From the IMG/VR virus record IMGVR_UViG_3300018045_000004, positions 1 through 36,242 of that record: a stretch of DNA of 36,242 nucleotides; one strand, 5' to 3'. Numbering within the stretch: the stretch's first letter is position 1; every line of letters starts with the position of its first letter. This DNA comes from a virus. The position numbers and the translations under genes were made by a program. This document shows positions 15,781-34,948 of this stretch, piece by piece. The notes beneath the pieces were generated by a model that saw only the letters and a program-made list of their open reading frames with translations, was not told where the DNA came from and ran no database searches.

Positions 15781-17196
15781 CTATAAACCTTTTTTATTAA
15801 ACGATACCGAGCGTATCACTTTAGGTGTTCGATGTCCACCAAATCGGCGTGAACCTTCTGGCGCATTTAGAGCGAAGTAACGGAACGCATCCGATGGGTG
15901 AGAAGCCCAATCGTGTACTGGTCGGTCTTTAAAGACCTGCAACTTCTCGTCCCACTCTCTATGATACGAACGTAACCCATCGATACCCTTCTCAACTTCC
16001 TTAGTTAAGTTGAAGCGACATAAAGGTAGAATAGTACGCGTCGCTTCAATCCCGTCTTGAATCAACTCACGTTTCATAACAGTGAAGTTGATACCCAACT
16101 CAGCCGCAATCTCTAGTCTACTTCGCGCTGAAGTCATCTCACGTTGCTGAATATCGTGTGGTGCGTAGTGTTCATCATATTGATAAGGCTTGTCATTAAT
16201 TAATTTTATCCAATCGACCAGTCCTAAATTCGACTCTTCCATATAGTCGATGATATGGAACGTACCGGTGTGGGTTGGTTGTACGAACCATATCGCTGTC
16301 GCATCACGTACCCCCAAATCCCAGTACGTATAAACAGGTAACATTGGGTCGTGAGCGAAGTCGCCCATGTGACCTTCCTTCTCAAGACGACCTATCACAT
16401 CAGAGTAGAACGCCCCTTCAATCGCCGCTTCGAACGAGCAATAGAATTCTTGCAACACTTTCGACTCAGACATCCCCTCATTACGCTCCGTCTGAATGTC
16501 CGCTTCAGAGATGACCGGTGTACCGTCCTCACGTTTAGTGTCCTCCACAGTTAGTAACTGGGCGAATCGACTATGGTCGCCGTCCTCGTAGGCTCGTGAT
16601 ATGTGTTTATAAAGGTGATACCCGTGGTTCTTCCCACGTGGGGTGTAGATGAATATAGCCCACCCGCCGTTCTCAGTCAGAATAGGGCGCATAAAGTCCC
16701 ACGCCGCAGGGTTACTTAGAGAATACTCAGAGAAGACCATGCCGACATAGTTAGTACCGACCACCGCATCGTAGTTATCCGACCCTGCCAACTGAAGTGT
16801 TGACCCATTGATCAGCTCGATGAACATCTCAGAGTCGTTCTTACGTTTAATGAGTTGTGGCGGGAAGTGGTCGATGAAACGCATCCCATCGGCACCAATC
16901 CCTTGCCATACAATCTTACGCGCTTGGGTTTGTAGGGGTAGGAAGTAAACATAGTTCCCGACTCGCTCCATCATTTTGGTCGCAAGTATGTTGATAATCG
17001 TTTTATCTTTACCCGCACGTCGGTGCCAGACCAACGCGATACGCGAAGCCGCAGGTTCTAATCTGGATTTAGCGTCATCACGCAACGCAGGGAACATTGC
17101 TTTCCACAACGGCTTCTGATAATGGCGAGGTTTGTATAGGTGAGGTAGCTTGACCTCGTTACTCGCTGTCTGTTTTGGTGATTGGATTACAGCCAT
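15781..17196 (-). CDS. terL: Terminase large subunit
   Basis: A 471-residue packaging ATPase-nuclease. The Walker A variant WHRRAGKDK is at residues ~57-65, Walker B VGMVFSEYS with its acidic pair at ~151-159, and the coupling motif IYTPRGKNHG at ~183-192. The RNase-H-like nuclease begins with an acidic residue in YTYWDLGVRDAT (Asp ~293) and ends with DWASHPSDAFRYFALN (Asp ~436). It cuts concatemers and pumps DNA through the portal. It starts four bases after the small-subunit stop, with AGGA as ribosome binding site. Confidence 0.94.
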   Translation of the reverse strand: MAVIQSPKQTASNEVKLPHLYKPRHYQKPLWKAMFPALRDDAKSRLEPAASRIALVWHRRAGKDKTIINILATKMMERVGNYVYFLPLQTQARKIVWQGIGADGMRFIDHFPPQLIKRKNDSEMFIELINGSTLQLAGSDNYDAVVGTNYVGMVFSEYSLSNPAAWDFMRPILTENGGWAIFIYTPRGKNHGYHLYKHISRAYEDGDHSRFAQLLTVEDTKREDGTPVISEADIQTERNEGMSESKVLQEFYCSFEAAIEGAFYSDVIGRLEKEGHMGDFAHDPMLPVYTYWDLGVRDATAIWFVQPTHTGTFHIIDYMEESNLGLVDWIKLINDKPYQYDEHYAPHDIQQREMTSARSRLEIAAELGINFTVMKRELIQDGIEATRTILPLCRFNLTKEVEKGIDGLRSYHREWDEKLQVFKDRPVHDWASHPSDAFRYFALNAPEGSRRFGGHRTPKVIRSVSFNKKGL

Positions 17197-17199
17197 GGG

Positions 17200-17946
17200 T
17201 TATCCTAGTAACGGGTCGTTTTGGTCTGCGTCATCATCGTCGATCTCCACATCAATAATGTGCGTTGTTGGTGATGACGGACTGGCGACAGTTGATGGTC
17301 TTGTTTGTGGTGAGGTGTAGGCAGGTAACGGTGACGGTGTAGGGTCTGATGCGAACATATTCACGTCCACCGCCACTTTTGGCGCAGACGCTTCTCTTGC
17401 TTCTTTGTCCATTCCACCAATCGTCCCTAACCACTTCAACGCATCCATCTTATTATGCAGGCGATACTTCCACGTCACCACCCCTGTCTTCACATTCTCG
17501 ATACGCTCAACGTGCGCCACCGCCTTCGCCACGTTAGGTGGTAACTTATTCGGCGGTACCGGACACCCATCGTCATCGAACAGGCCACGCACATCCGCCA
17601 TCGCCACATACGCCGCTTCAGTTAATACGTTCTCCGCAGTTATGTCCAACTGCAACGATAATAACTTATGGTAGTATTCTATTCGCTCGACCACTCTAGG
17701 CGCAGTCATCAACGTCGCCGCACGTCTACGAATTTGTTGCTCTGTACGCGACTCACACCACGCCGGATGCGTTTCAGTCAGTGCATACACAGGGTCTTGT
17801 CTCGTCGCCACCAACTGTGCGAACAACGTCTCTTCAGGTGAAGGGGCATATTCGAATTGTTGCAACGGCAGTAACGCTTCTCTTTGTTGCGGAGTAAGCG
17901 TCTCTGGGTCGAAACTAATTGTAGTGTTTTTAACTGGTGTCGTCAT
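17200..17946 (-). CDS. terS: Terminase small subunit
   Basis: A 248-residue protein. The N-terminal half (residues ~45-100, ETHPAWCESRTEQQIRRRAA and VVERIEYYHKLL) and the AAYVAMADVRGLFDDDG segment near 117-133 match Terminase_2-type small subunits, which recognise the packaging site and activate the large subunit. The tail after residue 195 is disordered, Pro/Ser/Thr rich, and ends in a strongly acidic stretch DVEIDDDDADQNDPLLG. Its ATG overlaps the stop of the winged-helix gene (ATGA). The DPLL ending recurs in that upstream gene. Identification is good; DNA target site is unknown. Confidence 0.85.
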   Translation of the reverse strand: MTTPVKNTTISFDPETLTPQQREALLPLQQFEYAPSPEETLFAQLVATRQDPVYALTETHPAWCESRTEQQIRRRAATLMTAPRVVERIEYYHKLLSLQLDITAENVLTEAAYVAMADVRGLFDDDGCPVPPNKLPPNVAKAVAHVERIENVKTGVVTWKYRLHNKMDALKWLGTIGGMDKEAREASAPKVAVDVNMFASDPTPSPLPAYTSPQTRPSTVASPSSPTTHIIDVEIDDDDADQNDPLLG

Positions 17947-18203
17947 AACAGTAACGGGTCGCCTTCGTCGGTGGGTAGACTGTACAAATGTTTGGTGCTA
18001 GATCGCACCTTCACAGTGTCCAGAACCAACACATTGTTGTCAACCATTCGTTCCAATTGTTTTCTAATCCAATCACTCTTCCCATCACCCTGATAGCGTC
18101 GGGTGATATAGGTTAACGGTACAGGTGTTGGTGTCTTCTTCTCGGATAAGTGTTCCAACAACTTCGCTTTAAATTCCAATTCATGTGGTGTTAATGATTC
18201 CAT
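17943..18203 (-). CDS. Winged-helix protein, first gene of the late block
   Basis: An 86-residue protein beginning MESLTPHELEFKAKLLEHLS. Helices at ~6-20 and ~45-65 (SDWIRKQLERMVDNNVLVLD) followed by a short beta-hairpin (KVRSSTKHLYSL, ~65-77) give a winged-helix layout, so DNA binding is likely. It ends EGDPLLL, like the small terminase. No Shine-Dalgarno sequence precedes the ATG, and the predicted promoter at 18212-18240 would start the mRNA only about two bases upstream, so it may be translated from a leaderless message. It could regulate its own promoter or assist terminase; both are inference. Confidence 0.75.
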   Translation of the reverse strand: MESLTPHELEFKAKLLEHLSEKKTPTPVPLTYITRRYQGDGKSDWIRKQLERMVDNNVLVLDTVKVRSSTKHLYSLPTDEGDPLLL

Positions 18204-18211
18204 GTGTATGG

Positions 18212-18240
18212 ATTGTACTTGAGTTCAAGTGTTTTGGCAA
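18212..18240 (-). promoter_or_regulatory. Late-block promoter with embedded dyad operator
   Basis: On the minus strand TTGCCA (18240-18235), 17 bases, then TACAAT (18217-18212): each box is one base from sigma70 consensus. The dyad ACTTGA-GT-TCAAGT (18217-18230, read on plus) fills the spacer. Predicted start is near 18205, two bases before the winged-helix ATG. This architecture is the classical one for repression by steric exclusion. Confidence 0.7.
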
Positions 18241-18348
18241 TAGGGGGCGTGGTGATATTAGGTGGTGTCGTTGTTAGGTTTACTTGAGTTCAAGTGTTTT
18301 GGGTTTCATTTATGATGTGAAGGGTATCAGGTTTAGTTGAGTTCAAGT
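18217..18348. repeat. Three ACTTGAGTTCAAGT dyad repeats
   Basis: Copies lie at 18217-18230, 18282-18295 and 18335-18348 (the last has AGTTGA as left arm). The second and third are inside a 45-base direct repeat (18277-18321 and 18330-18374) that differs at one base and has a 53-base period; the first keeps about 22 bases of it. Centre spacing of 65 and 53 bases is close to whole helical turns. Each copy ends with TTTTGG. They look like binding sites for one dimeric regulator of the late promoter. Confidence 0.8.
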
Positions 18349-18380
18349 GTTTTGGGTTTCATTTATGATGTGAAACTGGT

Positions 18381-18440: not shown

Positions 18441-19026
18441 GAAAACCTAAAATCGTTTTTATTCTGACGATTTTCGATTGGCACGATAAATGCTTACGGC
18501 AAATATCGCCCCAAACTCTCAGTTATTCGTTTTGATCATAAAAGTTGGCACGGCAGTTGCTTAACCGTTTAACTTTTTGCTAATCATTTGCTAAATCAAA
18601 ACTAAACAACTAAACTACGTAAAATTACTTACATACGTAATTTTACGCAATTGTGATTTTTTATAACTATACAAATTGTTCCATAACTTTACATTTTCGG
18701 GTCATAACTAAACAGTAACTAAACAGATTGATTTTTCAGTTTTTCCAAAGAATTGCGGTATATGGCGATTTGCGTTTCTTGTTGTACGTAATTTTACTAG
18801 TTTTTGTTTAAATGTTTAATTTTAAAACTAGTTTTAGGGTTGCGATCTGTAGCATATATATATACCTAAACCGTTTAACTCAACCGTTTAACTAAATATG
18901 CATATATAATAATATTCACTTTTTACTCTATATAACTAAACATTTAAACAAAATAAAGTAAAATTACGTATCAAGCCCAAATTAACAACCAAAACACCTA
19001 ACATAAAAATAAATTAACAAATTAAT
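18441..19026. other. AT-rich gene-free region with iteron-like repeats, candidate replication origin
   Basis: No gene is visible here. The region is very AT-rich and rich in repeats: GTAAAATTAC or its complement at 18619-18628, 18637-18646, 18788-18797 and 18958-18967; inverted repeats AAAATCGT/ACGATTTT (18449-18474) and ACTAGTTTT/AAAACTAGT (18796-18832); repeated AACTAAAC; and three CCGTTTAA operator-like sites at 18561-18572, 18867-18878 and 18881-18892. It separates the divergent early and late units. Together these resemble an origin with iterons and an unwinding element, but no initiator gene is known. Confidence 0.45.
18618..18647. repeat. 11-bp perfect inverted repeat
   Basis: CGTAAAATTAC (18618-18628) and GTAATTTTACG (18637-18647) are exact complements, separated by eight bases. 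They contain two convergent copies of the GTAAAATTAC element that recurs at 18788 and 18958. Confidence 0.85.
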
Positions 19027-19054
19027 TTGACTTAAACCGTTTAAGTGTTATACT
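19027..19054 (+). promoter_or_regulatory. Early rightward promoter with CTTAAACCGTTTAAG operator
   Basis: TTGACT (19027-19032), 16 bases, TATACT (19049-19054). The perfect palindrome CTTAAAC-C-GTTTAAG occupies 19031-19045, overlapping the -35 and filling the spacer, so a bound protein would block polymerase. Predicted start is near 19061, ~36 bases before the first early gene. This is the best candidate for the main early promoter. Confidence 0.7.
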
Positions 19055-23990: not shown

Positions 23991-24521
23991 ATGGGTAGAA
24001 AAGTCACCATACGAATAGAAGGTAAAACTCTTAACCAAGTTGCTATTGAAAACAATATGACCGAGAAGGCGGTTTACGGTAAGTACTATCGCGGTGCTAA
24101 AACGATTAAGGATATTGTTAAAAGCAACCGATCTAACGTGCAAAACTCTAAAGCTTTTGAAAAAGAGTACGGTATGACGTTTGCCGAGTACGGTAGACGT
24201 AACGGCGTACCAGAATGTACGGTACGGAGTCGTTATAACAGAGGTCTAGACTTAATCAAAGGTGTTCATCCTAAGTTATACGCCGGTAAAACCATGAAGG
24301 AATGGAAAAAGCTAAGCGGTAAAACGCAAAACACAATCTATTACAGATGGTGTAAGCACGGTGACGACTTAACGCTTGAACATTTAACACCGCCTTCTCA
24401 AAAAGATAAGGATAGAGACGCGTTACAAGGCGCCCCTATACCGTTAGACCCACCGAAGGCAAACAAGACTAGACATCAACGCGTGTTAGAAGCGTTAGCA
24501 AAGGAGCGAAATCGTGCGTAA
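23991..24521 (+). CDS. DNA-binding protein with three HTH-like repeats
   Basis: A 176-residue basic protein. Three similar segments are visible at ~11-42, ~61-92 and ~99-131. Each begins G-K/M-T, has a helix, a turn (NNM / NGV / SGK), a second helix and an aromatic R/K-Y or YRW with G (GKYYRG, SRYNRG, YYRWCKHG). This repeated minimal HTH should bind DNA, perhaps as a reader of an extended or repeated site. The C-terminus is disordered (PPSQKDKDRDALQGAPIPLD). It overlaps the cytosine methyltransferase gene by eight bases, so the two are made together. A role as specificity factor or as transcription regulator is inference. Confidence 0.7.
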   Translation: MGRKVTIRIEGKTLNQVAIENNMTEKAVYGKYYRGAKTIKDIVKSNRSNVQNSKAFEKEYGMTFAEYGRRNGVPECTVRSRYNRGLDLIKGVHPKLYAGKTMKEWKKLSGKTQNTIYYRWCKHGDDLTLEHLTPPSQKDKDRDALQGAPIPLDPPKANKTRHQRVLEALAKERNRA

Positions 24522-25684: not shown

Positions 25685-25732
25685 TTGTCGCCAGTAATGC
25701 GGTACACTATGTAGCTTAAACGGTTTAAGGAG
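25685..25732 (+). promoter_or_regulatory. Operator and probable promoter of the HTH regulator gene
   Basis: CTTAAAC-G-GTTTAAG lies at 25715-25729, the reverse-oriented form of the early operator. It overlaps the AAGGAG ribosome binding site (25727-25732) of the 75-residue HTH gene. TTGTCG (25685-25690) with TATGTA or TACACT downstream gives only a weak promoter. The layout suggests autoregulation. Confidence 0.6.
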
Positions 25733-25740
25733 TTAAACAA

Positions 25741-25968
25741 ATGAGTAATGTGAGAATCAATAGAGCCGAGTTCAAGAAAGAGGTCGAAGAGACTTTGAAA
25801 GAAAACGGTTGGCGTAAAGTAGACTTAGCGGCGAAGTTGGGGTGGTCTGCGGCTAAGTTAGCAATGAGTTTAAATGATAAGCGATACGAGACCGTATCGT
25901 TGGGGAATGTGGAAGAGATTCGTGATGCGATGACAGCGTTAGGTCTTAATGAAAAACGCGATCAATAG
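25741..25968 (+). CDS. Small Cro/CI-like HTH regulator
   Basis: A 75-residue protein beginning MSNVRINRAEFKKEVEETLK. Residues ~25-48 (RKVDLAAKLGWSAAKLAMSL) read as a helix-turn-helix with the LAxKLGWSxxKL pattern of Cro/CI-like repressors. It is flanked by its own operator copy, a 15-base palindrome that recurs before other early genes. It is therefore the likely binder of that site. No dimerisation or cleavage domain is present, so it is more like Cro than CI. No partner repressor is seen. Confidence 0.75.
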   Translation: MSNVRINRAEFKKEVEETLKENGWRKVDLAAKLGWSAAKLAMSLNDKRYETVSLGNVEEIRDAMTALGLNEKRDQ

Positions 25969-34803: not shown

Positions 34804-34948
34804 TACATAATCCTTTATTACATCGCAATTGAATAGTAAGTTATGAACCCAGTACTTGAGATCAAAGTTGCTATAATAGTGCTAATTATAGTACATAAGT
34901 AAGGGTGATGCCTTGTTATGCACTTTAACTTATTAAATGCGTACGTCA
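34804..34948. other. Intergenic spacer with AT inverted repeat
   Basis: No gene is visible. CTATAAT and ATTATAG (34871-34891) form an inverted repeat around seven bases, with TATAAT boxes readable on both strands. No convincing -35 partner is found. It may be a weak promoter or a short hairpin between the two leftward lysis-region genes. Confidence 0.35.

Follow-up and report, generated by a model that had tools for sequence, protein, structure and literature searches.

In phage lambda, the mRNA made from PRM for the cI repressor has its 5′ end at the AUG or immediately beside it, as do the mRNAs of related leaderless phage repressor genes. The operators of cI overlap its own promoter, and further copies are spaced upstream. 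Lambda also encodes Nu1, whose winged-helix (wHTH) domain recognizes the R sites of cosB. In the Bacillus phage GIL01, promoter P3 serves the late operon; it is repressed by host LexA and phage gp7 and activated by gp6 (PMC6182141). Here we describe a candidate late promoter with operator-like dyads, located before a predicted wHTH gene that overlaps a terminase gene, and compare it with these systems.

The window, by which we mean the whole 36,242-nt stretch analyzed, is a 36-kb contig of an uncultured tailed phage with two divergent gene blocks. Structural genes run leftward below 18.2 kb, and replication genes, including those for a VapE-like primase-helicase, a polymerase and a helicase, run rightward from 19.1 kb. 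The leftward block starts with the gene for an 86-residue predicted wHTH protein (17943–18203, minus strand). This gene overlaps that of the terminase small subunit, terS (Pfam Terminase_2; 17200–17946, minus strand), by 4 nt (ATGA), to give an overlapping wHTH-terminase operon; the genes for the large terminase subunit (15781–17196, minus strand) and the portal (PF12236; 14120–15778, minus strand) come next. One early gene (23991–24521) encodes a 176-residue protein with a sigma-70 region-4-like HTH (Pfam match above cut-off), whose PHROG matches are to an HNH endonuclease and a sigma factor. The minimum of the cumulative GC skew falls at ~18.5–19 kb. A 40-nt inverted repeat (18785–18824 and 18931–18970; 88% complementary, 106 nt apart) lies at this minimum in a stretch of 28% GC, and is a possible replication origin or leader structure.

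We found no close relative of this phage. By portal, the best cultured relative was Alteromonas phage ZP6 (40% identity), followed by Vibrio phages. The intergenic DNA gave only short AT-rich matches to known phages. We found no relatives of terS in phages or viral contigs, save weak matches in some portal loci, and none of the large terminase subunit in genome contigs. The viral TerL loci came from unlike phages, with no match to the gene order seen here. We recognized no integrase or lysogeny module in the phage.

The initial annotation had proposed a leftward promoter, TTGCCA-17-TACAAT, before the wHTH gene, and a weight-matrix scan upheld both its position and its quality. This sigma-70-type site (18212–18240, minus strand) consists of TTGCCA at 18240–18235, a 17-nt spacer and TACAAT at 18217–18212. 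It scored 12.5, the highest of all minus-strand sites between 18190 and 19110 (next best, 9.3), and ranked second among ~181,000 scored minus-strand combinations in the whole window. On the plus strand, two sites scored at least as high, and the best one in the intergenic region was the early promoter at 19027. The leftward site is the one strong candidate promoter for the virion genes as a whole.

Three distant relatives have sigma-70-type promoters with a 17-nt spacer in this position, immediately ahead of a small ORF and terS (TTGACG-17-TATAAT in ZP6 and in Vibrio phage 23E28.1, TTGACA-17-TATAAT in VP2). Their arrangement before a small ORF and terminase genes is like that of our phage, and their position supports a sigma-70 late promoter here. 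They differ in having stronger hexamers (TTGACR/TATAAT) and no dyad visible in the spacer, and their small ORFs are unlike the wHTH protein in sequence. The consensus hexamers of these relatives, together with spacers that show no visible dyad, count against the operator reading of the late promoter.

We next consider the start of the first late gene. From the sequence, transcription is predicted to start at 18205 ± 2 (~7 nt past the −10 element), and the ATG of the first gene is at 18203, which agrees with the very short or absent leader proposed earlier. The reported lack of a Shine-Dalgarno sequence was also confirmed: the anti-Shine-Dalgarno duplex of this gene was nearly nil (−0.2 kcal/mol), compared to roughly −6 kcal/mol for most of the phage's 45 genes. 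Three other genes of the 45 had values as weak, possibly from wrongly assigned starts. Because the dyad in the promoter contains an in-frame TGA, no common start codon is available upstream. Together, the predicted start ~2 nt before the ATG, the near absence of a Shine-Dalgarno match and this in-frame TGA make a leaderless or near-leaderless message likely if the late promoter is used. For VP2, 9 nt separate the −10 element from the first ATG as annotated. A further in-frame ATG that follows a GAGG corresponds to the 23E28.1 start, and VP2 therefore shows no clear sign of leaderlessness.

Three dyads make up the late array. Copy 1, ACTTGA-GT-TCAAGT (ACTTGAGTTCAAGT; 18217–18230, in the 22-mer 18216–18237), is an operator-like dyad that overlaps a recognizable promoter. 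It was described as lying exactly in the spacer of TTGCCA-17-TACAAT; 13 of its 14 bases do, and one is shared with the −10 element. Copy 2 is identical to copy 1 (ACTTGAGTTCAAGT; 18282–18295, in the 22-mer 18281–18302). Copy 3, AGTTGA-GT-TCAAGT (AGTTGAGTTCAAGT; 18335–18348, in the 22-mer 18334–18355), has one mismatch. The two upstream copies have the spacings claimed for them (65 and 53 nt), and the near-perfect repeat around them measures 46 nt with 45 identities (18276–18321 versus 18329–18374). Common to all three copies is the 22-mer TA(C/G)TTGAGTTCAAGTGTTTTGG, which extends beyond the dyad on one side and is thus asymmetric.

Since the conserved unit is this asymmetric 22-mer, copy 1 alone is the promoter. 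We rejected copies 2 and 3 as promoters on their weak scores on both strands, and the 17-nt spacer rules out a MerR-type mechanism with a 19-nt spacer. Helical phasing, suggested earlier for the whole array, holds between copies 2 and 3 (53/10.5 = 5.05 turns) and fails for copy 1 (65/10.5 = 6.2 and 118/10.5 = 11.2 turns). Looping through phased dyads is not supported by this geometry, in which copy 1 is off the phase of the other two.

The late array was the sole cluster in the window with at least three like dyads within 200 nt, and no three-copy dyad cluster was found in 30 simulated sequences. From three copies in 887 nt, we estimate a chance of ~2% that a dyad falls in one given 17-nt spacer. 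The 19-nt core TTGAGTTCAAGTGTTTTGG had no viral match, and we found no second clear case of the late operator. A search for paired dyads matched three viral stretches, which we rejected: two were coding repeats and one was unrelated noncoding DNA. The latter (L096, 2250–2400), from an unrelated viral contig, holds a triple repeat around CTACTTGAGTTCAAAT that resembles the late dyad. Within the window, ACTTGAGATCAAAG (34854–34867) has three mismatches to the late dyad, a chance-level match, and lies beside a TATAAT where the early gene block ends.

The promoter-like sequence, the dyads, their geometry and the missing Shine-Dalgarno sequence are real features of this DNA. Our best explanation, to which we assign a probability of about 45%, is that the dyads are operators that occlude the late promoter and are read by the wHTH protein as the candidate binder. 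It draws on the dyad cluster being unique in the window and beyond chance, on the early promoter being built alike around another dyad, and on the prediction that the first late gene encodes a wHTH protein. We infer binding, repression, a transcription start and a physiological role as follows. The three dyads would form a tandem operator array at the phage's only strong leftward promoter, which would drive the operon of wHTH, terminase and virion genes. At copy 1, a dimeric DNA-binding protein would cover the spacer between the −35 and −10 elements and exclude RNA polymerase. The other two copies would raise local occupancy and, being mutually in phase, may function together as a single auxiliary site. 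The binder would most likely be the 86-residue wHTH protein made from the same transcript, and the late operon would then be self-limiting, in the manner of a self-regulating on/off switch. With an mRNA start ~2 bases before the AUG, the regulator would be made from a leaderless or near-leaderless message and the terminase genes would be translated by coupling.

The rightward early promoter, TTGACT-16-TATACT (19027–19054, plus strand), has CTTAAACCGTTTAAG in its spacer (19031–19045). The same 15-mer with its central base changed, CTTAAACGGTTTAAG (25715–25729), precedes the start codon by 11 nt at a Cro/C1-like HTH gene (25741–25968, plus strand; dyad and gene together span 25715–25968). Dyads of this second class (CTTAAACSGTTTAAG) had nine matches at up to three mismatches, compared to 1.4 expected. 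Weaker copies are present at 18865, 20784, 20815 and 28429. Because the dyad occurs both in the early spacer and just upstream of 25741, the 25741 protein suggests itself as the binder of this class and probably owns it, judging by placement. Among relatives of the 25741 protein, we found only distant high-GC ones, without that dyad. The placement of the dyads offers circumstantial support for a scheme in which each regulator gene carries its own operator class, with the wHTH protein as the candidate for the late class.

The late operators could also be read by another protein, from the host (a repressor) or the phage, with the wHTH protein serving for example as a terminase partner. Operator geometry is independent of which protein binds, and the phage has further small candidates: the Cro/C1-like 25741 protein, the 23991 protein and several unassigned early ORFs. 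Against this, the wHTH gene is the nearest and would itself be under dyad control, and the CTTAAACSGTTTAAG class is the better match for the 25741 protein, in line with the initial annotation, which had set the late dyads apart from that class. Overall, we regard a different binder as unlikely.

We assessed the 86-residue protein by structure prediction and homology searches. An AlphaFold2 model from the single sequence had the order helix-helix-helix-strand-strand (mean pLDDT 69.7), and structure comparison gave Z scores of 8–9 to many unrelated winged helices (best, 8.9 to 1wq2) with no specific family. The helix and strand order, the pLDDT of ~70 and these Z scores agree with the winged-helix fold assigned earlier. 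The modeled matches support a wHTH fold, not a function. We found no relatives of the protein in viral contigs, genome contigs, phages, Pfam or PHROGs, and a PDB sequence search gave chance-level matches only.

Several points weigh against the operator reading. Neither a homologue of the protein nor another clear example of the operator turned up, so that covariation lends no support to pairing the wHTH protein with the dyads. The model was made from a single sequence, and the protein, with a predicted pI of 6.8, is not basic. The conserved 22-mer is asymmetric.

The location of the dyads led us to weigh a packaging function, in which the repeats would be a packaging site (pac- or cosB-like) and the wHTH protein the DNA-recognition partner of terS. 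The dyad block is 0.27–0.43 kb upstream of terS, and the wHTH and terS genes overlap. In ZP6, the end assigned by PhageTerm is ~0.3 kb upstream of the annotated terS (PMC8515928), so by analogy the dyad block is near where the physical end of ZP6 maps. Vibrio phage 23E28.1 has four tandem dyads (TGCCTAGCAGCAGGCA; L095, 1055–1204) in the gap upstream of terS, beyond its late promoter and spaced 37–40 nt apart, with the unit TGCCT-N6-AGGCA and a base change in one of the four copies. Our phage is therefore not alone in having tandem dyads in the gap ahead of terS. The placement of copy 1 in a promoter argues against packaging, as does what we read as a degenerate Terminase_2-type N-terminus within terS itself. 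Lambda Nu1 was not among the 50 structural matches listed for the wHTH protein, which excludes nothing. Considering both sides of this analogy, we judge a packaging role to be quite improbable.

We also observed sigma-54-type sites 104–171 nt past the dyad block, on the other strand; the initial annotation had mentioned neither these nor a packaging site. Only two sites in the window had at most one mismatch to TGGCAC-N5-TTGC. Both are on the plus strand, 67 nt apart: TTGGCACGATAAATGCT (18478–18494), with one mismatch to YTGGCACGRNNNTTGCW, and TTGGCACGGCAGTTGCT (18545–18561), an exact match. A degenerate inverted partner, TTGGGGCGATATTTGCC (18498–18514, minus strand), faces the 18478 site with 5 nt between the −12 elements. 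About two such sites are expected by chance in the whole window, so the count alone is unremarkable. Their placement is what stands out: none of 2000 simulated intergenic regions had two on one strand, and 2.29 million strand-bases of related loci were free of exact matches; because the search was made after the fact, both figures overstate the significance somewhat.

These sites could give the dyads another role, as activator sites of a host sigma-54 enhancer-binding protein that would turn rightward transcription on and block the leftward late promoter via copy 1. The −24/−12 consensus YTGGCACGRNNNTTGCW is found exactly at 18545 and with one mismatch at 18478, and both the same-strand pair and the exact match stand out as above. 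The dyads are ~130–260 nt upstream of the 18478 site, with the end of the repeat block 104 nt away, and tandem dyads 100–300 nt upstream are usual for sigma-54 activators. On the other hand, no activator of that class was recognized among the phage proteins scanned, and a strong sigma-70 early promoter is already present at 19027. The face-to-face partner at 18498 and the habit of forming arrays elsewhere (see below) are unlike simple promoters. We therefore consider activation by a host sigma-54 protein rather unlikely.

We scanned viral contigs for two sigma-54-type sites 35–65 nt apart. We found at least 120 such viral stretches (L108–L227), where we estimate about one by chance. These loci contained 760 sites at up to one mismatch, compared to 59 for the reversed pattern; selection alone explains ~240 of the 760, and the remainder is still far above the reversed-pattern control. 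Neighboring sites of the array pattern, TGGCACG-N4-TTGC, prefer spacings of 26–28 nt, with spacings of 50–70 nt also present, while gaps of 4 and 7 nt are favored in face-to-face pairs. The flanking preferences match the published sigma-54 consensus. Many arrays overlap called ORFs, the ORF calling being mechanical. Two array queries gave no match in cultured phages, and we found no paper on such arrays in open-access text. Tandem and face-to-face sigma-54-type arrays apparently form a widespread, undescribed class in phage genomes, and may be a decoy for the sigma-54 polymerase, a promoter cluster or a site for a phage protein. The recurrence of these regular arrays in many uncultured viruses gives them broader importance than the late dyads.

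Repeated dyads were near 13 of 80 arrays, compared to 2 control regions, and had no common motif. With enrichment this modest and no common dyad, the array loci do not tie dyads to arrays, which speaks against the sigma-54 alternative. A stronger version would make the intergenic region a sigma-54/sigma-70 switch that gates infection by host physiology, with its array belonging to the widespread, apparently undescribed class. A host enhancer-binding protein on the three dyads would then activate rightward early transcription from the 18478–18561 array, and the same bound protein would simultaneously occlude the sigma-70 late promoter. We hold this switch to be improbable.

If the self-regulated late operon is correct, an 86-residue protein and a 22-bp site would make up a compact late-gene regulator without known relatives. 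The locus resembles lambda cosB and gpNu1 in that repeats precede the terminase genes and the first gene codes for a (here predicted) wHTH protein. It differs in that copy 1 is in a promoter and the wHTH protein is separate from terS; a packaging role here would be by analogy. Similar to GIL01 P3, the late-operon promoter carries tandem boxes, which here would serve a small regulator acting in the promoter. The candidate binder here is the wHTH protein, unlike LexA, gp7 or gp6 in GIL01, and we claim no sequence relation. The likeness to lambda cI and PRM is in the predicted combination of a DNA-binding regulator, a start near the AUG and operator-like dyads in the promoter and upstream of it. 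In contrast to cI, the candidate regulator here heads a terminase and virion operon and is predicted to have a winged helix in place of the HTH of cI type.
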